A stretch of 64,000 bases of DNA. Source: an uncultured Parabacteroides sp. GTDB lineage: Bacteria > Bacteroidota > Bacteroidia > Bacteroidales > Tannerellaceae. This document shows positions 1 to 63,705 of the stretch, in pieces. The stretch lies in NCBI GenBank assembly GCA_934725305.1, contig CAKVBA010000003.1:1-64000 (forward strand), written 5' to 3'. Position 1 is the stretch's first letter. The number at the start of each line of letters is the position of its first letter. The notes beneath the pieces are model-generated. The model was not told the DNA's origin, made no database searches, and saw only the letters and a list, made by a program, of their open reading frames with translations. The translations under genes and the position numbers were made by a program.

Positions 1-538
1 TTTAACAGATTTAAATGATTTCACAACTGCTTATTTAACAGCATTCTAACGACGTTGGAACGGCATTAGAGAAAAAAGCCATATAAGACTGTCTGTTTGG
101 GTAACGACGCCCCAACGACATAGCCTTGTAAACTCACGGACAATAGCTATAAAAAATACAATAAGCCGGCGAGCAGATAAGAGGCTATTAACCCCGCCAA
201 AACGGAGTAGGCTATTTTTGGAAATTGGGTAACTACTCCTTTCCGACGGAGTGCCTACCCAATCCGAACGGAGTGCCTACCCAATTTCAAAAAAGTCTAT
301 ACCCTTTTTGAGAAAAGTCTATAGACTAATTCCGAAAAGTCTATAGACCTTTGAAAGCCAGCCTATAACCTTGTTTTACAAGGCATTCAGTCCAAGGCGG
401 ATTGGTCGGTCAACCTTGGCGAAATGGCCCATTGCCCTTAATGGTTTTCTCTCTCGCTGTTAGCAAAAACGAGCTTAACTAAAATACAATAACTACTATA
501 ATTTAGGGATAGTACTTCCGTCCAGGGCGTTGCCCTGG
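1..538. repeat. Multi-hairpin intergenic repeat, copy 1
   Basis: This noncoding segment reappears almost base for base, inverted, at 24981-25496, and as a diverged copy near 58150-58460. It is a mosaic of palindromes: two GTCTATAGAC boxes (near 320-350), a TAACCTTGTTTTACAAGG-type hairpin (near 370-390), an ATTGGGTA...TACCCAAT inverted pair (near 215-290), and a terminal CCAGGGCGTTGCCCTGG palindrome (522-538). Copy 1 is 22 bp longer than copy 2 because it has one extra 22-bp unit of the ATTGGGTAGGCACTCCG type. It contains no gene. The left edge may lie outside the window. It could be a non-autonomous mobile unit or a structured RNA-coding repeat; the sequence does not decide between these. Confidence 0.85.
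31..74. repeat. 11-bp phased array (4 units) inside repeat copy 1
   Basis: Four consecutive 11-mers, TTATTTAACAG, CATTCTAACGA, CGTTGGAACGG and CATTAGAGAAA, share the pattern YRTTNNAAYGG with an exact 11-bp period. The same kind of array is seen at 5361-5415, 22312-22344, 25423-25466, 48300-48354 and 57842-57874. Confidence 0.7.
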
Positions 539-4622: not shown

Positions 4623-5087
4623 ATGGTAAAGACCTATTTGGGGCTGGGAACGAATATAGGAAACAAGCGGCGCAATCTGATTACGGCGGCTGCCCTGTTG
4701 GCCGAACGTGCCGGCGATGTGTTGTCGATTTCCAGCTTCTATGAGACGGAGCCTGTCGGATTTCAATCGGACAATCAGTTTTTGAATGCGGCGGTCTATT
4801 TAGAGACAGCTTGTTCTCCGCAGGAGCTGCTCGAGATAACGCAAGCCATTGAACGGGAGATGGGACGCACTTCCAAGAGCGTCGATGGCCAGTATAAAGA
4901 CCGGATTATCGATATTGATATTCTGCTTTATGGAGATTGGGTGGTCAATGAAGAGACACTGACGTTGCCTCATCCGTTGATGCAAGAGCGAGAGTTTGTG
5001 ATGGCTCCATTGGCCGAGATTGCGCCGATGGCGGTTCATCCGGTGTCTGGTAAAACAATGCAACAGATATTTGAAGAATTGGTATGA
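4623..5087 (+). CDS. folK: 2-amino-4-hydroxy-6-hydroxymethyldihydropteridine pyrophosphokinase
   Basis: The 154-residue HPPK transfers pyrophosphate from ATP to 6-hydroxymethyl-7,8-dihydropterin in folate synthesis. The N-terminal LGLGTNIGNK motif, the FYETEPVGFQ segment and the ATP/Mg-binding DRIIDIDILLYGD motif (with the DxD aspartates) near residues 99-111 identify it. It is monofunctional: no DHPS or DHNA domain is attached. The last codon overlaps the next gene by four bases (ATGA). Confidence 0.95.
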   Translation: MVKTYLGLGTNIGNKRRNLITAAALLAERAGDVLSISSFYETEPVGFQSDNQFLNAAVYLETACSPQELLEITQAIEREMGRTSKSVDGQYKDRIIDIDILLYGDWVVNEETLTLPHPLMQEREFVMAPLAEIAPMAVHPVSGKTMQQIFEELV

Positions 5088-5281
5088 ATAAAGAGATTAA
5101 GAAAGCCATGACAGAAGGCATTGTCTTCAAGAAGGCAAGTGCAGGCGCTCCTTCCGGTGAGCGCAGACCTAAGTTGTCAGACTTTATGCGTGGAACCCAT
5201 GGTTCGGCTTCGGCCCGTAAGAAGGCAGAATATAAGCTGAAGCGTGCTCGCAGACCTACGCAGCGTCGTAATAATGGTTGA
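5084..5281 (+). CDS. Small basic protein of unknown function, coupled to folK
   Basis: The 65-residue protein is strongly basic, with a C-terminal tract rich in Lys and Arg (KKAEYKLKRARRPTQRRNNG) and no signal peptide or membrane helix. The ATGA overlap with folK suggests it is a real, translationally coupled gene and the last of the operon; a strong terminator follows 35 bp later. The composition suggests nucleic-acid or ribosome contact, but this is inference. I do not recognise a named domain. Confidence 0.7.
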   Translation: MNKEIKKAMTEGIVFKKASAGAPSGERRPKLSDFMRGTHGSASARKKAEYKLKRARRPTQRRNNG

Positions 5282-5316
5282 GAAATAGGACGGTGTGTCA
5301 TAGTGGCAACCTAACA

Positions 5317-5353
5317 AAGGCTGTATCAAAAACGATCCTTTTGATACAGCCTT
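5317..5353. terminator. Bidirectional terminator between the folK and mutL operons
   Basis: AAGGCTGTATCAAAA pairs with TTTTGATACAGCCTT around a 6-8 nt loop. Flanking A and T runs allow it to work on both strands. It lies between convergent operons. Confidence 0.85.
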
Positions 5354-5360
5354 CGTTGTC

Positions 5361-5415
5361 TGTTATAATGGTGTTATAACGGTGTTTTAATGATGTTAAA
5401 ACGGTGTTATAAGAG
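5361..5415. repeat. 11-bp phased array, 5 units
   Basis: Five head-to-tail 11-mers: TGTTATAATGG, TGTTATAACGG, TGTTTTAATGA, TGTTAAAACGG, TGTTATAAGAG. TT at positions 3-4 and AA at 7-8 are invariant. The array lies between the convergent 3' ends of the folK and mutL operons, just after the terminator hairpin. Confidence 0.9.
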
Positions 5416-5436
5416 TGCACACTTGCGCCTCTTTGG

Positions 5437-7311
5437 TTATCTGAACCGTTTCTGCAACTCTTCATCTGTTATCAGCGAGAGAATCGTTTTCCCATCGGGC
5501 GTCAGATTCGGATCGGCACATGAAAAGAGAGTCGCAATCAGATGATCCATCTCATCCGAACTCATCGGTTTTCCCGGTTTAATGGCAGCTGCTTGGGCCA
5601 GTGATACCGCGATGGTCTTGGCAATCTCTTCCTCCACATGACAATCCGTCTCCATTGCCAGATTGACAATGTCTTTGATGAGCATACCGGGATTGCTGTT
5701 GTCGATGCCGGCAGGAACGCCATTGATGGCATATGTGTCATTGCCCAAATTACTCAAGTCGAAACCGATATAGCGGAGATCGTCCAGCAACTTTGGCAAA
5801 ACGATTGCTTCGTCGGTCGTAAACTCCACAATCTCGGGGAACAGCACCTGTTGGGACGCTCCTTTTTGCTGAGTGATATTGCTCAGATACTGGTCGTATA
5901 AGATGCGCACATGAGCCCGGTGCTGGTCAATCAAAGCCAATCCCGACTTGAGAGACGTGATGATGTAGCGACCTTTGTATTGTGAGCAGATATTGTTGGT
6001 TTCGGGAAACAGATGAGCATCCATCTCTTGAGGCGCAGCGGCAATAGACTCTATATCGTCAGTCATCACATTCTCCAAAGCACCCATTGCAGCCAGTTCT
6101 TGCTGTACGGCGGCTTTGTCCTCTTCAAACCCTTGATACAATTTAGACCAGTCAAACTCCGAAGGCTGAGATGTGGACGAAGCGGCCGGTTCGTCAAACG
6201 GATTATAGTTGCGTTGGAGCTGGACCTTCGGTGCCTGTTGTTGAGTTATCGGATGTTCAGTCGGATTATAGACCGGAATATCAATCGCATCCGTCATGTC
6301 GAAGTCGATAGTTGGAATGGCACTCGATTTTGCCAATGCTTCGCGGACAGCAGCCATCAATATCTGCCAGATAGGTTGTTCGTTCTCGAACTTAATCTCC
6401 GTCTTTGTTGGGTGTATGTTCACATCTATGGTGGCCGGATCAATGGTGAAATAGATGAAATAGTTGGGCTGTTCACCTGCCGGAATCAGTTGGTCGTAGG
6501 CCTGCATCACTGCCTTATGAAAATAGGGATGCTTCATGTAGCGGCCGTTGACAAAGAAGTATTGCAGAGCGCCTCGCTTCTTGGCCGAATCGGGTCGGCC
6601 TACGAAGCCGGAGATAGAGACTAATGAACTCTGGACATCAATGGAGAGCAGTTTTTGATTCAGGTTTTTCCCATACACATTGATGATGCGTTGGCGCAGT
6701 CCTGATGAGGGAAGGTTCAATATTTCCGTATCGTTGTGATAGAGAGAAATTGCCCGGTCTTGATTGGCCAAGGCGATGCGTTCAAACTCTGTAACGATGT
6801 TGCGGAATTCTGTCTCATTTGATTTAAGGAACTTGCGTCGGGCCGGCACATTAAAGAAGAGGTTTTTCACCGAGAAGATTGATCCTTCGTTACAAGCATC
6901 CGGTTCCACCTCTTCAACAGTCGATCCTGCCAAGGTAATGCGCGTACCCAATTCACTGCCTTTGGCACGTGTGCGCAGTTCCACATGAGCAACAGCCGCA
7001 ATTGAGGCTAATGCTTCACCACGGAATCCCATGGTATGTAGTGCAAACAGATCGTCGGCCGAGGCAATCTTCGAGGTCGCATGGCGTTCAAAGGCCATTC
7101 GTGCATCTGTCTCAGACATGCCTTTTCCGTCATCAATCACCTGGATAAGGTTCTTTCCCGCCTCTTTGATGTTGACGCGGATTGATGAGGCGCCGGCATC
7201 CACTGCATTTTCTACCAACTCTTTCACAACGGAAGCCGGGCGCTGTATCACTTCACCCGCTGCAATCTGATTGGCTATGTGATCCGGTAGTAGATGTATT
7301 ATATCGCTCAT
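5437..7311 (-). CDS. mutL: DNA mismatch repair protein MutL
   Basis: The 624-residue protein has the GHKL ATPase domain at about 1-330: HIANQIAAGEV, ELVENAVDAGA, DDGKGM and the GFRGEAL lid. A variable linker follows at about 330-430, then a C-terminal dimerisation domain. MutL links MutS mismatch recognition to strand removal. The C-terminal metal-binding motif expected of nicking MutLs, DQHA(x)2E(x)4E, is degenerate (DQHRAHVRILYDQY), and the usual CPHGRP-like motif is replaced by a CADPNLTPDG stretch, so endonuclease activity is doubtful. The start at 7311 (MSDIIHLLP) is the family start and overlaps the upstream gene by ATGA; a longer reading from 7329 is not supported. It is the last gene of the folding-factor operon. 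Confidence 0.96.
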   Translation of the reverse strand: MSDIIHLLPDHIANQIAAGEVIQRPASVVKELVENAVDAGASSIRVNIKEAGKNLIQVIDDGKGMSETDARMAFERHATSKIASADDLFALHTMGFRGEALASIAAVAHVELRTRAKGSELGTRITLAGSTVEEVEPDACNEGSIFSVKNLFFNVPARRKFLKSNETEFRNIVTEFERIALANQDRAISLYHNDTEILNLPSSGLRQRIINVYGKNLNQKLLSIDVQSSLVSISGFVGRPDSAKKRGALQYFFVNGRYMKHPYFHKAVMQAYDQLIPAGEQPNYFIYFTIDPATIDVNIHPTKTEIKFENEQPIWQILMAAVREALAKSSAIPTIDFDMTDAIDIPVYNPTEHPITQQQAPKVQLQRNYNPFDEPAASSTSQPSEFDWSKLYQGFEEDKAAVQQELAAMGALENVMTDDIESIAAAPQEMDAHLFPETNNICSQYKGRYIITSLKSGLALIDQHRAHVRILYDQYLSNITQQKGASQQVLFPEIVEFTTDEAIVLPKLLDDLRYIGFDLSNLGNDTYAINGVPAGIDNSNPGMLIKDIVNLAMETDCHVEEEIAKTIAVSLAQAAAIKPGKPMSSDEMDHLIATLFSCADPNLTPDGKTILSLITDEELQKRFR

Positions 7312-17138: not shown

Positions 17139-18371
17139 TCAAGCGATCTGTAAACGATTTACGTCCGATTTGTTAAATTTATCTTTCGCATACTCCAAAG
17201 TGATTTGAAGCTTTTTCTTTTTTTCTGACGGCATGCTATACATTGCATCCATCATCACAGCCTCTACGATAGAGCGTAATCCGCGAGCTCCTAGTTTAAA
17301 CTCTAATGCTTTGTCCACGATGAACTCATATACATCCTCGTCAAATGATAGTTTGATGCCGTCCATATCAAACAGTTTGATGTACTGTTTGATGATTGAG
17401 TTCTTGGGTTCGGTCAGAATGCTGCGAAGCGTGCTTCTGTCCAGCGGGTTTAAATAGGTCAGGATAGGCAGACGTCCGATAATCTCAGGAATCAGACCAA
17501 ACGACTTCAAGTCTGTCGGTGTGATATACTTTAATAGATTATCGCGGTCAACAGTTGCCGTGTCAATACTGGCAGCATATCCTACTACTCGTGTGTTCAA
17601 TCGTTGAGCAATTTTCTTCTCTATTCCATCGAAAGCTCCTCCGCAGATAAATAGAATGTTCTTGGTGTCAACCGGGATCATTTTCTGTTCGGGGTGTTTG
17701 CGTCCTCCTTGTGGCGGAACATTCACAATAGAACCCTCTAACAGTTTTAGCAGACCTTGTTGAACACCTTCTCCACTTACGTCGCGTGTAATGGAAGGGT
17801 TGTCACTTTTGCGGGCAATCTTATCAATCTCATCAATGAAGACAATACCTCGCTGGGCAGCATCCACGTCATAGTCGGCAGCTTGCAGCAGGCGTGTCAG
17901 AATGCTTTCAATATCTTCACCCACATAACCGGCTTCGGTTAATACGGTTGCATCTACAATGGTGAACGGCACATGCAGCAGTTTGGCTATCGTACGTGCC
18001 AAGAGAGTCTTGCCTGTACCTGTTGCGCCTACCATAATGATGTTTGACTTCTCGATTTCCACGTCATCTTCAGTCTTCTTTTGCAGCAATCGTTTATAAT
18101 GGTTATAAACCGATACCGACAGATAACGTTTGGCATCGTCTTGTCCAATCACATATTGGTCGAGAAAAGTCTTGATGTCGATTGGTTTTGGCAGGTCTTT
18201 CTGGTTCAGTCCCAATTCAGACTTGCTCTTTTCATCCAGCTGCTCTTTGACGATTTCATAAGCCTGCTTGGTACATTCGTCGCAGATACATCCTGAGATG
18301 CCATTGATTAGCAATTTGACTTCGCGACTGCTTCTTCCACAAAATGTACATATGTTGCCTGATTTGGCCAT
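17139..18371 (-). CDS. clpX: ATP-dependent Clp protease ATP-binding subunit ClpX
   Basis: The 410-residue AAA+ unfoldase feeds substrates to ClpP. The N-terminal zinc-binding domain has Cys8, Cys11, Cys30 and Cys33. Walker A is GATGTGKT (115-122), Walker B is [10 protein letters not shown], and the GYVGEDVES-like pore-region segment reads GYVGEDIES. The ClpP-contacting IGF-type loop is not obvious at a glance and was not located with confidence. It is 16 bp after clpP and 31 bp before recQ. Length is standard. Confidence 0.97.
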
Positions 18372-19271: not shown

Positions 19272-20624
19272 TTATTCAAATAATTTGCCGAATTCTTCTG
19301 CAGACACTTCTTTAACGTCAAGTTCGATCTGTTCTTTCAACCATGCAGCCAATTTCTCTTCTACAGCGCGGTCGATAACGTTCTGCAATGTCTGCTTGTT
19401 TTTCAACATTTCCTTAGCATAGTTGCTAACTACCTCTTCAGGAACTGACAACATGCCGTACTGAGCGAACTGAGCTTTAGCCACACGTTTAGCAAATGCT
19501 TCGATGTCTGCGTCTTCAACCTTCAGGTCGTTCTTCTTAACCAAAGCTTCTTTGATCAGGTGATATTTCAAATCTTCGATGATCTTCGGATAATCTTCTT
19601 CGATAGATTCTTTGGTGTTCTTTTCGTTAGCAACCAGCAACCAGCGTTTCAGCAAGTCGTCAGCGAAAGACAATTCACCAGCCTTTTCAACCAAGATGTC
19701 GCGGATATCAGTCAAGAACTTGTAGTCGCTCTGAGGCATGAACTGTTCGCTCAATGCTTCTTTGATCTTGTTCTTGAATTCTTCTTCGCTTGTTACAACG
19801 CCTTCGCCGAATACTTTGTCGAACAATTCCTGATTCATCTCTGCATTTTTGTGGCGAGAGATTTCAGTGATTTCGAAGCTGAAGTCTGCAGTAGCTTCTG
19901 CTACTTTTTCTTTGTCGATCTTCAAGAAAGATGCGATTTCTGCTTCTGAACCTTCGAATGCCTTGTTCGGGTTGAATGTGATAACAGAGTTAACCTTTGC
20001 ACCGATGAACTTAGCTTTCTCTTCTTCGTTCTTGATGTATAACGGCATAACTACTGTGTTCTCTGCAACGATACCACCTTCTTTAGGAGTGCCGTTTTCC
20101 AATTCAGCTACAGTACCCTTAACCAAGTCTTTTTCTTCTACCTCTTCAGCTTTTTCATAAGTACCGAAGTTTGCGCAATAAGACTCGATCTGCTTGTTCA
20201 GCATTTCGTCGTCGATATTAACCTGATAGAACGGAACTTTGTCGTTCTTGCTTAATTCTATATTGATTTCAGGAGCAAAAGCAACATCGAAGCAGAATTC
20301 GAAATCTTCGTCTGTGTCGAAGTTGATTTCTTTCTGTTCTGTCTGGTTGGGCATCGGCTCACCCAAAATGTTTACATTGTTTTCACGGATGTATTTGAAC
20401 AGGTTTTCAGAAACCAATTTGTTAACCTCTTCAACCAAGACATGCTTGCCATACATTTTTCTTACCATGCCCATTGGTACCATACCTTTACGGAAACCCG
20501 GTACATTGGCTTTCTGACGGAAGCTGCGCAGGCTCTTTTCAACCAGATCTGCATAGTCAGCTTTCACTATTTCCAGTTTCACGATACCGCTAACGGCATC
20601 ATTGTTTTTAAGAGAAACGTTCAT
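19272..20624 (-). CDS. tig: Trigger factor (ribosome-associated chaperone)
   Basis: The 450-residue protein has the trigger factor N-terminal ribosome-binding domain, with the signature FRKG in NVPGFRKGMVPMGMVRK near residues 41-57. A middle FKBP-like region follows (about 150-240), then a helical C-terminal chaperone domain. It binds nascent chains at the ribosome exit tunnel. The middle domain lacks a clearly conserved FKBP active site on reading, so isomerase activity is uncertain. It lies upstream of clpP on the same strand with a separate promoter and a terminator between them; tig-clpP-clpX order is common in bacteria. Confidence 0.95.
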   Translation of the reverse strand: MNVSLKNNDAVSGIVKLEIVKADYADLVEKSLRSFRQKANVPGFRKGMVPMGMVRKMYGKHVLVEEVNKLVSENLFKYIRENNVNILGEPMPNQTEQKEINFDTDEDFEFCFDVAFAPEINIELSKNDKVPFYQVNIDDEMLNKQIESYCANFGTYEKAEEVEEKDLVKGTVAELENGTPKEGGIVAENTVVMPLYIKNEEEKAKFIGAKVNSVITFNPNKAFEGSEAEIASFLKIDKEKVAEATADFSFEITEISRHKNAEMNQELFDKVFGEGVVTSEEEFKNKIKEALSEQFMPQSDYKFLTDIRDILVEKAGELSFADDLLKRWLLVANEKNTKESIEEDYPKIIEDLKYHLIKEALVKKNDLKVEDADIEAFAKRVAKAQFAQYGMLSVPEEVVSNYAKEMLKNKQTLQNVIDRAVEEKLAAWLKEQIELDVKEVSAEEFGKLFE

Positions 20625-20700: not shown

Positions 20701-20859
20701 ATTGTTGGCCGAAATTGTTGTTAGATTGTTCTTTATCGCCTGAAAATGGCATTCTTCCCTATTTTAACGAGATAAATAGTTGTTAGTCTAAAATATTTGC
20801 ATTCCTTTGTGGTGCTGAAAGGGGATTTACCTTGAACTTACTTAACATTGTTACTGATT

Positions 20860-20900
20860 TCTTCATTTATATGTCGATGATCTCTTCATTTATATGTCGA
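20860..20900. repeat. Two 18-bp direct repeats upstream of the RRM gene
   Basis: TCTTCATTTATATGTCGA occurs at 20860-20877 and again at 20883-20900, 23 bp start to start. The pair sits 75-115 bp before the RRM-protein start, in an AT-rich intergenic region (20640-20974) with no other gene. Operator or RNA-binding site are both possible. Confidence 0.6.
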
Positions 20901-20974
20901 AGTGTTTTTCATTGTTACGATTTTTTCTGGTTTACTACTTTCATTAAGTAACAATTTTTCAAAATATTTTTTGT

Positions 20975-22311: not shown

Positions 22312-22344
22312 TATTCAAACGGCATTCAAACAGCGTTCAAAAAA
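22312..22344. repeat. 11-bp phased array, 3 units
   Basis: TATTCAAACGG, CATTCAAACAG and CGTTCAAAAAA follow one another exactly. They lie between the convergent CPBP protease and lptB genes, where no conventional terminator hairpin was seen. Confidence 0.7.
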
Positions 22345-24980: not shown

Positions 24981-25496
24981 CCAGGGCAGCGCCCTGAGCT
25001 GAAATACTATCCCTAAATTATAGTAGTTATTGTATTTTAATCAAGCACGTTTTTGTTAACAGCAAAAGAGAAAACCATTAAGGGCAATGGGCCATTTCGC
25101 CAAGGTTGACCGACCAATCCGCCTTGGACTGAATGCCTTGTAAAACAAGGTTATAGGCTGGCTTTCAAAGGTCTATAGACTTTTCGGAATTAGTCTATAG
25201 ACTTTTCTCAAAAAGGGTATAGACTTTTTTGAAATTGGGTAGGCACTCCGTCGGAAAGGAGTAGTTACCCAATTTCCAAAAATAGCCTACTCCGTTTTGG
25301 CGAGGTTAACAGCCTCTTGTCTGCTCGCCGGCTTATTGTATTTTTTACAGCCATTGCCTGTGAGTTTACAAAGCTATGTCGTTGGGGCGTTGTTACCCAA
25401 ACAGACGGTCTTATATGGTTTTTTTCTCTAATGCCGTTCCAACGTCGTTAGAATGCTGTTAAATAAGCAGTTGTGAAATCATTTAAATCTGTTAAA
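24981..25496. repeat. Multi-hairpin intergenic repeat, copy 2 (inverted)
   Basis: This is the reverse complement of 1-538 with few differences. It starts with the CCAGGGCAGCGCCCTG palindrome (24982-24997) and ends with the complement of the first bases of the window. It has one ATTGGGTAGGCACTCCG unit instead of two, which accounts for the 22-bp length difference. It contains no gene and ends 214 bp before the frameshifted regulator. Copies 1 and 2 flank 24.4 kb in opposite orientation. Confidence 0.9.
25423..25466. repeat. 11-bp phased array inside repeat copy 2
   Basis: TTTCTCTAATG, CCGTTCCAACG, TCGTTAGAATG and CTGTTAAATAA are the complement of the array at 31-74, keeping the TTNNAA core every 11 bp. 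Confidence 0.65.
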
Positions 25497-29678: not shown

Positions 29679-29761
29679 TCCTTCAAGATGATTAAATGTA
29701 TATGTTTCGTGGAGGATTGACTTGGGAGGGAAAATATTTGCTGAATAGCAACAGAAGTGAA

Positions 29762-29813
29762 ATTTGTTTTTAGCATTTTTTCCTGTGGTTGCAAGCAATC
29801 AAATCTATCCACA
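29762..29813 (-). promoter_or_regulatory. Candidate SAM-II riboswitch in the metK leader
   Basis: On the minus strand the leader reads TGTGG (29813-29809), ATA, GATTTG, ATTG, CTTGCA, then ACCACA closing the P1 stem (29788-29784), then an A-rich linker, ATGCTAAAAA and CAAAT (29766-29762). The order GUGG - GAUUUG - CUUGCA - CCAC - A-rich - GCUAAA is the SAM-II (SAM-alpha) consensus as I know it. CAAAT can pair with ATTTG in the loop to form the pseudoknot. The element starts about 6 nt after the predicted start site, as is usual for this class. It precedes a SAM-synthesis gene, which fits. A covariance-model hit would settle it. Confidence 0.65.
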
Positions 29814-29825
29814 TCAATCCAGCTG

Positions 29826-45960: not shown

Positions 45961-46033
45961 GAATCCGGAATTGTGAATAGATTACATATTGACCTTATCC
46001 TCTCTGTGATCGCGGCTGCACGGTTCCAGATTC
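45961..46033 (+). promoter_or_regulatory. Candidate S4 autoregulatory leader upstream of rpsD
   Basis: GAATCCGGAA (45961-45970) pairs with TTCCAGATTC (46024-46033): nine base pairs and one mismatch, enclosing 53 nt. It sits in the only long gap of the alpha section, right before rpsD. Structured S4 leaders of Bacteroidia have been proposed from comparative genomics; identity with that motif is inference. Confidence 0.5.
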
Positions 46034-48158: not shown

Positions 48159-48192
48159 AAAAGGGTGTTTCGATTTCGATTCACCCTTTTTT
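48159..48192 (+). terminator. Terminator of the ribosomal protein cluster
   Basis: AAAAGGGTG pairs with CACCCTTTT around a loop of about 14 nt, followed by TTT. It is 20 bp after rplQ. Confidence 0.85.
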
Positions 48193-48299: not shown

Positions 48300-48354
48300 C
48301 CTTATAATGGCATTCTAACGGTATTTAAACACCGTTAGAATGCTGTTTAAATGC
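48300..48354. repeat. 11-bp phased array, 5 units, with a 34-bp near-palindrome
   Basis: CCTTATAATGG, CATTCTAACGG, TATTTAAACAC, CGTTAGAATGC and TGTTTAAATGC follow at exact 11-bp spacing. The middle units also form an inverted repeat (GCATTCTAACGGT ... ACCGTTAGAATGC, 48310-48343). It lies between the convergent rplQ and glycosyltransferase genes. The rest of 48193-48399 shows no gene. Confidence 0.85.
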
Positions 48355-57812: not shown

Positions 57813-57841
57813 GTATCTCGGCATCTCTTTTTTTGAACGGG

Positions 57842-57874
57842 TTTTTGAATGCCTTTCAAAGGATGTTCAACCCC
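57842..57874. repeat. 11-bp phased array, 3 units
   Basis: TTTTTGAATGC, CTTTCAAAGGA and TGTTCAACCCC. They also form an imperfect hairpin (TTGAA..CCTTT / AAAGG..TTCAA). It lies in the noncoding region between the candidate sRNA and the next repeat. Confidence 0.55.
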
Positions 57875-57957
57875 AATCGTCATTAGAACGAAAAAAGTAA
57901 AACAACTGACTGTTTTTATTCTTTCCTACTCTTGTCAGCACTTCTTTGGGCATCTTG

Positions 57958-58061
57958 CTTCCGCCTGCGTTTCGACATAGCCCGCTATGCCTTCAACGCA
58001 GAGCCATTGCAATCTGCTCAAAACAAGTACCAACAAGAATTGTAATCTAATGACCGAATTG
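57958..58061. repeat. 104-bp dispersed repeat, copy A
   Basis: The segment from CTTCCGCCTGCGTTTCGACA to TGACCGAATTG recurs at 62953-63054 in the same orientation with about ten differences and a 2-bp gap. It includes the palindrome CATAGCCCGCTATG. It has no open frame of its own; a 97-residue antisense reading through it is not credible. Confidence 0.85.
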
Positions 58062-58149
58062 AGTTTAAAGGCATTCGTCCTTTTCTTGGTAACGTTTTTG
58101 GCGAAGTTATTGTAATTTTTCAGTGTTGCTATTGGCGGAAAACAGGAGA

Positions 58150-58460
58150 TGAATCCATCAAAAGTAATGGGTGATTCCGTTGGAATTGACAGGCAAATCT
58201 GTCTTGGTCTAAACAGCCTGTAAAACAATGTTATAGGCTATCTTTCAGGGGTCTATAGACTTCTTGGGATTAGTCTATAGACTTTTTCAAAAAAGGGTAG
58301 GGACTTTTCTGAAATTGGGTAGGCACTCCGTTCGGATTGGGTAGGCACTCCGTTGGAATTGGGTAGGCACCCAATTCCCGTCAATAAACGAATCCATTTT
58401 ACTTGGGTTAATAGCTTTCTGGCTTCTTGTTGGCTTATTGTGCTTTTTATAAATCCAAAT
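58150..58460. repeat. Multi-hairpin intergenic repeat, diverged copy 3
   Basis: It has the same order of elements as copy 2 (CCTGTAAAAC...GTTATAGGCT, two GTCTATAGAC boxes, GAAATTGGGTAGGCACTCCG, GGCTTATTGTG), but clearly diverged. It carries three tandem 22-bp units of the ATTGGGTAGGCACTCCG type (58314-58379). No gene is present between here and 58648 apart from a TATATTTG box at 58618-58625 that may belong to the next gene's promoter. Confidence 0.75.
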
Positions 58461-62937: not shown

Positions 62938-62952
62938 TAGTGTAAGATGTTA

Positions 62953-63054
62953 CTTCCGTCTGCGCTTCGACATAGCCCGCTATGCCTTTAACGTAGCCAT
63001 TGCAATCTGCTCAAAACAAGTACTAACAAGAATCGTAATCTAATGACCGAATTG
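62953..63054. repeat. 104-bp dispersed repeat, copy B
   Basis: Same sequence family and orientation as 57958-58061 (102 bp here). It ends four bases before the marC stop codon and forms the intergenic space between the terminator and marC. Confidence 0.85.
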
Positions 63055-63057
63055 GGA

Positions 63058-63705
63058 TTAATGAGATATAGCCTCCTGAATGATATTGGTCAAAATAGGC
63101 TTCAGACCACTGGCGAAGCTCTCAACCGCAATCACCATTACAATCAGACCCATGAGTCGCATCATTACGTTGTTTCCTGTTTCCCCTAACAAGTTGACCA
63201 AACGGGTTGAGGCACGCAAGATGAAAAATGCAATCAGATAGACAAAAGCAATCATACCAATTAATACGCCCTTGCTGGCATAAGTGGTAGCATCGTCCAT
63301 CAACATGAAGGCATTGGCGATAGCGCCGGGTCCACAAAGCATCGGAATAGCCAATGGTGTGATGCTGATATCGTTGGCATAGGTTTTCACCTCTTCGTCT
63401 TTCAGTTTCGCATTGGAATAACGTGCCTGAAGCATATCAAAACCAATTTTGAAGATGATAAATCCACCGGCAATTCTGAATCCATTGGTAGAGATACCAA
63501 AGAACTTAAACAGGAATTGTCCTGAGATGGTGAAAGCCAATAGCGTCAGGAAGGCAGCAATTGTGGCTCGTTTAACGATCGCTTTTCGTTCATTGTTGGT
63601 CAAACCTTGTGTCATCGTCAAGAAGACCGGCATTGTACCTAACGGGTTTGTCAATGTAAAGAACGAAGTGAAGCATAATAATGCATAAGGTAAAAGTGTG
63701 TCCAT
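63058..63705 (-). CDS. MarC-family integral membrane protein
   Basis: The 215-residue protein has six hydrophobic helices and the MarC/UPF0056 motifs FTLTNPLGTMPVFL near 15-28, FKIGFDMLQA and PLAIPMLCGPGAI near 113-125. The family is of unknown transport function; its historical link with multiple antibiotic resistance is not supported. It starts 13 bp after the PNGase-like gene end, so they may be co-transcribed. Confidence 0.92.
   Translation of the reverse strand: MDTLLPYALLCFTSFFTLTNPLGTMPVFLTMTQGLTNNERKAIVKRATIAAFLTLLAFTISGQFLFKFFGISTNGFRIAGGFIIFKIGFDMLQARYSNAKLKDEEVKTYANDISITPLAIPMLCGPGAIANAFMLMDDATTYASKGVLIGMIAFVYLIAFFILRASTRLVNLLGETGNNVMMRLMGLIVMVIAVESFASGLKPILTNIIQEAISH

Follow-up and report, generated by a model that had tools for sequence, protein, structure and literature searches.

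MetJ and ParR bind their targets, the met boxes and parC, as cooperative dimers on tandem short units. The arrays described here resemble the met boxes and the 11-bp repeats of R1 parC in being tandem short units on which dimers could lie side by side, but the met boxes repeat every 8 bp, parC is a partition locus, and the sequences of both differ from those of the arrays. The REP and BIME elements of enterobacteria are, like the arrays, intergenic and limited to certain lineages; REPs are imperfect palindromes that form hairpins, whereas the arrays are phased short palindromes, some of them without a hairpin. BIME-2 is bound by gyrase. Gyrase is drawn to places downstream of transcribed genes, an attraction that in E. 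coli is reportedly not hard-wired in sequence (PMC6379681). Phage Mu requires a special strong gyrase site whose right arm carries phased bending signals (PMC10052514, PMC12393610); PMC10052514 ascribes the bending to repeat motifs and states that the site works best at the phage centre, and PMC12393610 gives 47-48 bp as the length wrapped by one gyrase pinwheel.

The DNA analyzed here is a stretch of chromosomal DNA, 64,000 nucleotides long, from an uncultured Parabacteroides sp. (contig CAKVBA010000003.1; the window), whose ribosomal protein L17 is 75-94% identical to that of loci named Parabacteroides. A preliminary description had reported six arrays with an exact 11-bp period, and 11-bp units were found at all six places. 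Array 1 (31..74) has four units in 11-bp phase, the outer ones imperfect, and lies in copy A of a dispersed repeat; array 4 (25423..25466) is array 1 inverted, in copy B. Five TTNNAA units make up array 2 (5361..5415), between the convergent folK (HPPK) and mutL genes, and array 5 (48300..48354), which has dyad symmetry and lies between rplQ and a convergent glycosyltransferase gene, while the three units of array 3 (22312..22344), all TTCAAA, lie between convergent genes for a CAAX protease and an ABC transporter. Array 6 (57831..57874), earlier named at 57842, is the weakest: its phase begins already at 57831, and it comprises at most four in-phase units in a 662-bp gap with a minus-strand ORF on both sides. 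With a weight matrix made from 162 phage units, arrays 1 to 6 score 22.6, 27.8, 29.3, 22.0, 28.5 and 18.9 bits, respectively; none is assigned a strand. A profile made from the window arrays themselves, R1, misses array 6 and rates the other five at 28-40 bits each on their better strand. All six arrays thus exist, but their independence did not hold, because arrays 1 and 4 are inverted copies within one ~540-bp repeat, which leaves five independent arrays. The units form a real family that is strand-symmetric and helically phased, as had been proposed; the unit reads YRTTNNAAYR in the window and in Bacteroidota phages. Three arrays (5361, 22312 and 48300) do lie between convergent gene ends, and the distances from their own ends to the minus-strand stop codon are 22, 32 and 46 nt; convergent gaps make up 1000 of the 7711 intergenic bp of the window (13%) and contain three of the five independent arrays (p ~0.018), an enrichment that is suggestive only. 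An Rfam scan of the window gave no match at the arrays, finding only a SAM-II riboswitch (29760-29818, minus strand, above the Rfam gathering score) and an S4 leader (45980-46018), and a plasmid collection gave no match to gap 5087-5437, which contains array 2.

In the intergenic DNA of the window, spacings from one TTNNAA to another peak at 11 (14 pairs), 22 (10) and 33 bp (5), with 0-4 pairs at every other spacing from 4 to 49 bp, and no peak at 11 occurs in the coding DNA of the window. Arrays were scored where at least 11 of the 12 TT..AA letters were present across three units, and as perfect at 12/12, and the 28 intergenic gaps (8186 bp) were compared with 300 dinucleotide shuffles. Seven arrays were found, including one overlapping register of the sixth array, against a shuffle mean of 0.48 and a maximum of 4, and three were perfect, against a mean of 0.010 and a maximum of 1. 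The family would have been refuted by a frequency equal to that in shuffled intergenic DNA, and the observed frequency is clearly higher. Counted as overlapping three-unit windows, 14 fall at period 11 and 0-2 at each of the periods 8-10 and 12-14.

Chromosomes of relatives show no such signal. When 200 kb was taken from each of four Parabacteroides-family genomes, TTNNAA spacing counts at 11 were 0, 6, 2 and 2 with no peak, intergenic three-unit windows numbered 0, 1, 1 and 0 versus 14 in the window, and eight arrays at period 11 were no excess over a mean of 10.7 at other periods. Among more distant relatives, none of 12 mutL loci had a three-unit array and ten rplQ neighbourhoods had two-unit chains at most; this says little about close strains, because the window MutL, although matched in 115 of 123 genomes of the P. 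acidifaciens family, reaches a full-length identity of just 77% at best and the gene beyond mutL is often a different one. A MutL 88% identical to that of the window occurs in another organism (P0002). The top R1 score in the 123 family genomes was 30.6 bits among the best candidates, at most 52 per genome; in the R1 genome searches as a whole, each genome offered tens to thousands of candidates, of which 16-150 were scored, so that low counts per genome are weak evidence. The 75 loci fetched via R1 contain 53 distinct arrays of at least 18 bits (phage arrays included, genes called by ORF length only), of which 32 are intergenic, 16 within ORFs and 5 at edges. The intergenic ones comprise 11 in convergent, 13 in co-directional and 8 in divergent gaps, a convergent share of 11/32 versus 15% of intergenic bp in the family samples. 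A five-unit array at L310:1484-1537 looks like replication-origin iterons; the gene around it encodes a Lin1244 N-terminal domain and matches a replication-initiation phage family. Two similar eight-unit arrays in opposite orientation (L311:1489-1575 and L321:1467-1553) occupy two places in one Bacteroidales genome (G406).

Among the better R1 matches in relatives were sites scattered over related prophages of two genomes, four in one and five in the other (G045 and G072); these prophages have a Mu F-like gene and a gene for a MuB-family AAA ATPase. While the first Mu-like prophage was noticed through the window-built R1, no window DNA went into the collection made with MuB, into the remaining Mu-like phages or into the profile trained on phages. 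Mu-like loci were gathered from IMG/VR by their MuB protein and not by array (80 loci, the best 80 of 159), and a three-unit array is present in the gap between MuA and MuB in 74 of the 80 loci, or 55 of the 60 sequences that are distinct. TTNNAA pairs in these gaps number 86 at spacing 11, 53 at 22 and 19 at 33, with at most 5 at any other spacing from 6 to 39, although the gaps are homologous and so are not 60 independent events. Twelve whole Mu-like records contain 3-6 sites each at E up to 1, in gaps as well as inside genes, mostly 4-14 kb apart with extremes of 1.4 and 20 kb (matches grouped into sites by judgement).

In the Bacteroidota Mu-like set (45 non-redundant of 96 loci, 529 kb), 77 arrays were found at period 11 versus a mean of 5.7 (3-12 each) at nine other periods, and perfect units numbered 32 versus 0-1. 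The Mu-family set (16 non-redundant of 56 loci, 272 kb), made up of E. coli and Haemophilus phages and of IMG/VR loci found with Mu's MuB, has 28 arrays at period 11 versus a mean of 5.7 (2-15), with periods 10 and 12 raised too. For single phages, the count at period 11 is five in Mu itself, versus one over the eleven other periods from 7 to 18, four in hankyphage versus five summed over eleven other periods, nine in Peternella versus 18 over eleven other periods, and two in the P. gingivalis phage versus none; in SuMu, periods 10 and 11 are level at nine arrays apiece. The hankyphage arrays lie at about 140, 5250, 27390 and 42650 (p00 coordinates). No excess is seen in the non-Mu set (24 non-redundant of 36 loci, 460 kb), where 31 arrays at period 11 compare with a mean of 26; this control consists of B40-8-like phages, crAss001 and lambda and has no temperate non-Mu Bacteroidota phages, as an integrase query gave no relatives, and it took the place of a lambda terminase set that had come down to one non-redundant locus. 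Of six named Mu-like records, five have their first array within 140-308 bp of the left end, the five including the close relatives Mu and D108, and the P. gingivalis phage being the exception. The period-11 array thus marks Mu-like phages of two phyla, versus non-Mu phages and the chromosomes of relatives. Some arrays lie inside the Mu F-like gene (L291:5878-5920, L294:16462-16504, L299:6578-6609 and L156:18506-18537), at about nt 350-365 of the gene, and in two phages they extend to opposite sides of a common Phe-Glu codon pair, a hint that selection acts on the DNA.

The weight matrix from 162 phage units, to which the window contributed nothing, was applied to sets of three units spaced at period 11, with a cut-off of 18 bits. 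In the window it found exactly six sites, at 31, 5361, 22312, 25424, 48300 and 57842, and no site at periods 8-10 or 12-14. The same profile gave one site in 800 kb of the four family chromosomes, one in 1.25 Mb of 80 Bacteroidales loci and one in 589 kb of non-Mu phage, versus 17 in 271 kb of the Mu family and 81 in 481 kb of Mu-like loci, the last a redundant set that partly includes training records. Twelve of the 80 Mu-like loci belong to records G124-G135, six of which trained the profile; with these 12 removed, the remaining 68 loci have 69 sites at period 11 and 0-2 at six other periods. A near-identical profile from the six IMG/VR phages alone (115 units) recovered just the same six window sites, together with four sites in hankyphage and six in Peternella, and found no site in the P. 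gingivalis phage. Recovery of the window sites by a phage-trained profile is a blind test, although the discovery through R1 was not.

The flanks and the inner bases of the units were examined next to their phase. The share of unit sides with YR flanks is 0.68 for the six-phage set (85 units), 0.65 for hankyphage (13), 0.54 for Peternella (24), 0.60 for the P. gingivalis phage (5) and 0.76 for the window (19), versus 0.19-0.28 for isolated TTNNAA in the same DNA and 0.19 for chance arrays of control phages. In Mu, D108 and SuMu the phase comes without the YR flanks (0.18), and other Mu-family loci are intermediate (0.36). As the MuB of the other Bacteroidota phages is 24-27% identical to the six-phage type, and Mu's MuB likewise 24-27%, the YR unit tracks the host phylum and not MuB relatedness, which suggests that the factor belongs to the host or is at least phylum-wide. 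When units of the same phage array are compared, their two central bases are identical at 0.134 versus 0.103 by chance and complementary at 0.113 versus 0.087. With both values near chance, neither duplication nor hairpin formation explains the phage arrays, and each unit seems to be kept singly. Tandem duplication as an origin is rejected for the phage arrays only, since units in the arrays of the window and of other chromosomes exceed chance in likeness or complementarity (0.27-0.41 versus 0.11-0.17). A shortage of G at the first N was dropped as a mark of the unit because chance arrays of control phages share the shortage (0.10). The free positions raise the in-phase roll modulation (z -9.0 for Bacteroidota Mu-likes, -7.6 for the Mu family and -2.8 for the window's six), and some roll bias, though less, is also present in the 31 chance arrays of control phages (z -3.7).

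Judged from the sequences, the arrays are most likely protein-wrapping or protein-binding sites. The phase, the consensus of the unit, the connection with phages and the near-independence of units are direct results; that a protein binds or wraps the arrays, and that it is gyrase, is inferred. Each would present A/T-rich minor grooves (TTNNAA) on one side of 3-6 helical turns (~32-65 bp) and flexible, G/C-richer YR steps on the opposite side, so that a protein could dock or wrap on one face, a geometry compatible with the earlier proposal of a protein on one face of each unit. Rigid TT/AA steps combined with flexible YR steps are the layout of DNA made ready to be wrapped. The likeliest binder would be a host factor specially needed by Mu-like phages, and our first candidate, held tentatively and at somewhat less than even confidence, is DNA gyrase, followed by MuB or a cooperative dimeric regulator. 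An array would then be one wrapped arm of a strong gyrase site, which in phages may shape the prophage domain and on the chromosome would sit in intergenic gaps where convergent transcription piles up positive supercoils; the reported attraction of gyrase to sites downstream of genes would suit convergent gaps. The phage arrays, at 3-6 units, are near the wrap of one pinwheel (47-48 bp according to PMC12393610), and the right arm of the Mu strong gyrase site may resemble them in its phased A/T and G/C half-turns within a Mu-like phage, scoring 10/12 in the array test at 17915, beside the annotated cut site 17879-17880. Plain A/T periodicity, rejected as a detector because it is not specific, fails to pick out the Mu site, which ranks 495 (period 11.0) or 145 (period 10.7) of 36641 windows, and this counts against gyrase. 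The Haemophilus phage SuMu has dense TTTTAAAAC arrays (L335:18354-18416) between genes G and I, which flank the gyrase cut site in Mu; the strong gyrase site of Mu occupies this place.

Other observations argue against gyrase. The Mu strong gyrase site is single and central and has a cleavage core, whereas the arrays number several per phage, have no recognised core and occur near both ends and throughout the genome, not just centrally. Among 77 phage arrays, no second periodic arm was found beyond a core of ~36 bp: moving outward from the array edges, the in-phase unit score is 1.26 at 11 bp, 1.25 at 22 bp and 0.80-1.14 from 33 bp, with a background of 1.01 (sd 0.11). The Topo-Seq gyrase motif, by comparison, spans 130 bp with two periodic arms. 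The E. coli report that gyrase attraction downstream of genes is not hard-wired in sequence also weighs against it. Relatives, whose gyrase is presumably similar, lack chromosomal arrays, SuMu is equal at periods 10 and 11, and the P. gingivalis phage is without a profile site.

A rather unlikely alternative is that MuB, the AAA+ ATPase with which Mu-like phages capture targets, nucleates at the arrays. Within a phage, the arrays would load MuB onto the phage's own DNA and so protect it from self-insertion; within the chromosome, they would direct or fend off insertions by the Mu-like phages resident there. This would agree with the distribution of arrays over whole phage genomes, with their presence in nearly every distinct MuA-MuB gap, and with MuB being the sole non-virion protein among the ORFs of records G124/G131 to have a blastp match in all nine other array-tested phages, Mu included. 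MuB coats the Mu interior, and the Mu genome is said to have no known features that hold MuB stably (PMC2837660). Against MuB, the Bacteroidota-host phages share the YR unit across a MuB divergence at which Mu is without it, MuB has only a minor role in immunity according to PMC7350765, and some chromosomal arrays have no recognised phage gene nearby, such as that beside a radical-SAM gene (L308).

We consider it unlikely that the arrays are operators on which a sequence-specific dimer, of ribbon-helix-helix or similar fold, would bind cooperatively, with one YRTTNNAAYR palindrome for each turn. Short palindromes in tandem whose positions drift, repeated 3-8 times at a fixed spacing as with RHH/MetJ-type proteins, the specific YR flanks, and the location at gene junctions such as MuA-MuB are all consistent with such a regulator, whereas arrays also lie inside genes and at gene ends, and phage Mu has the phase but not the flanks. 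No clear regulator emerged from 11 conserved, mostly small phage proteins that were scanned, most of which had no DNA-binding match; one gave a weak sub-threshold HTH (Pfam E 0.0085), and another, present in three other phages, matched a PHROG named transcriptional regulator (4e-7).

That the arrays are functionless, as a lineage-specific minisatellite or mobile-element debris spread in intergenic DNA, appears quite improbable. The likeness of units within the window and chromosomal arrays would fit such an origin, as would the density of arrays just in the window's species among the sampled genomes (with few candidates per genome scored) and the location of two of the six arrays in a repeat element. 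However, units vary within and between arrays while the phase and TT/AA stay constant, phage units are scarcely copies of one another, and the same unit is found again in phages and in distant chromosomes. The repeat element, given without strand, is MITE-like, with 22-bp palindromic tandem repeats that have a GTCTATAGAC core. Copy A (1..538) is cut by the window start and contains array 1 and the 22-bp repeats, copy B (24981..25496) is inverted relative to A and 91-94% complementary to it, and copy C (58146..58451) is just the 22-bp-repeat part at 77%. Two short matches (35-54 bp) were all that was found of it in the 123 family genomes, and two relatives (L118 and L119) possess ~22-bp arrays of their own, in which the core is similar or differs. 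In these 22-bp repeats the element resembles the BrickBuilt MITE of Porphyromonas gingivalis, likewise an intergenic dispersed Bacteroidales element with tandem repeats; BrickBuilt has 23-bp units in a MITE with leader and tail (PMC4596501), while the 11-bp arrays are mostly free-standing. Arrays 2, 3 and 5 lie outside all dispersed repeats of the window, so a MITE with terminal inverted repeats does not enclose them. The window also has a second dispersed repeat of ~115 bp (57952-58068 and 62947-63061, 88-94% identical in two parts) and an imperfect 23-bp tandem repeat with TTCATTTATATGTCGA (20855-20913) in the gap upstream of the minus-strand ORF 19272-20624.

Array 48300 folds strongly as RNA (-27.3 kcal/mol; z -5.3 on the plus and -5.8 on the minus strand) and array 5361 moderately (z -2.3 and -2.5), array 31-74 folds on one strand only, and arrays 22312 and 57842, which thus lack the conserved hairpin palindrome of REP/BIME elements, do not fold. 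Ordinary terminator-like hairpins, separate from the arrays, adjoin array 2 (5317..5353, plus strand) and lie 3' of rplQ near array 5 (48159..48190, plus strand, read by eye), and similar strong ones (AAAGGCTGCATCAAA ... TTTGATGCAGCCCTTT) follow several genes (5317-5353, ~14880, 28330 and 62900, by eye). The suggested transcript-end role, with palindromic units folding as hairpins of bidirectional terminators, therefore keeps some standing at 48300 and 5361, at the three convergent gene ends and in two prophage arrays that resemble plain terminators with T runs (sequences read by eye), but as a general explanation it is rejected and very improbable, since two arrays do not fold, 48300 and 5361 have no clear T run after them on either strand and have separate hairpins beside them, and the units of phage arrays pair barely above chance.

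The preliminary description knew of no named element of this kind, and our search of the literature, judged by titles and abstract openings and with subscription journals mostly outside it, likewise found neither this array family nor its connection with Mu-like phages described. Phased bending arms and tandem operator boxes are already known as a general kind; the array family and its Mu-like link are apparently undescribed. It is possible, if doubtful, that Mu-like phages from Proteobacteria to Bacteroidota carry several sequence-encoded, helically phased docking arrays genome-wide, also close to both ends, that load a protein which coats or wraps DNA (MuB or gyrase) and could underlie Mu domain formation and self-insertion immunity, and that the window's bacterium has adopted the same code for its intergenic, mainly convergent, gaps. 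The arrays may bear on how Mu spares its own 37 kb from its own transposition and on how a prophage becomes a separate domain; because Mu-like phages of two phyla share a phased array, such questions can be put to a concrete sequence that can be mutated. For the host chromosome, the arrays would, if this is true, represent a new kind of intergenic architecture element, so far dense in one species.
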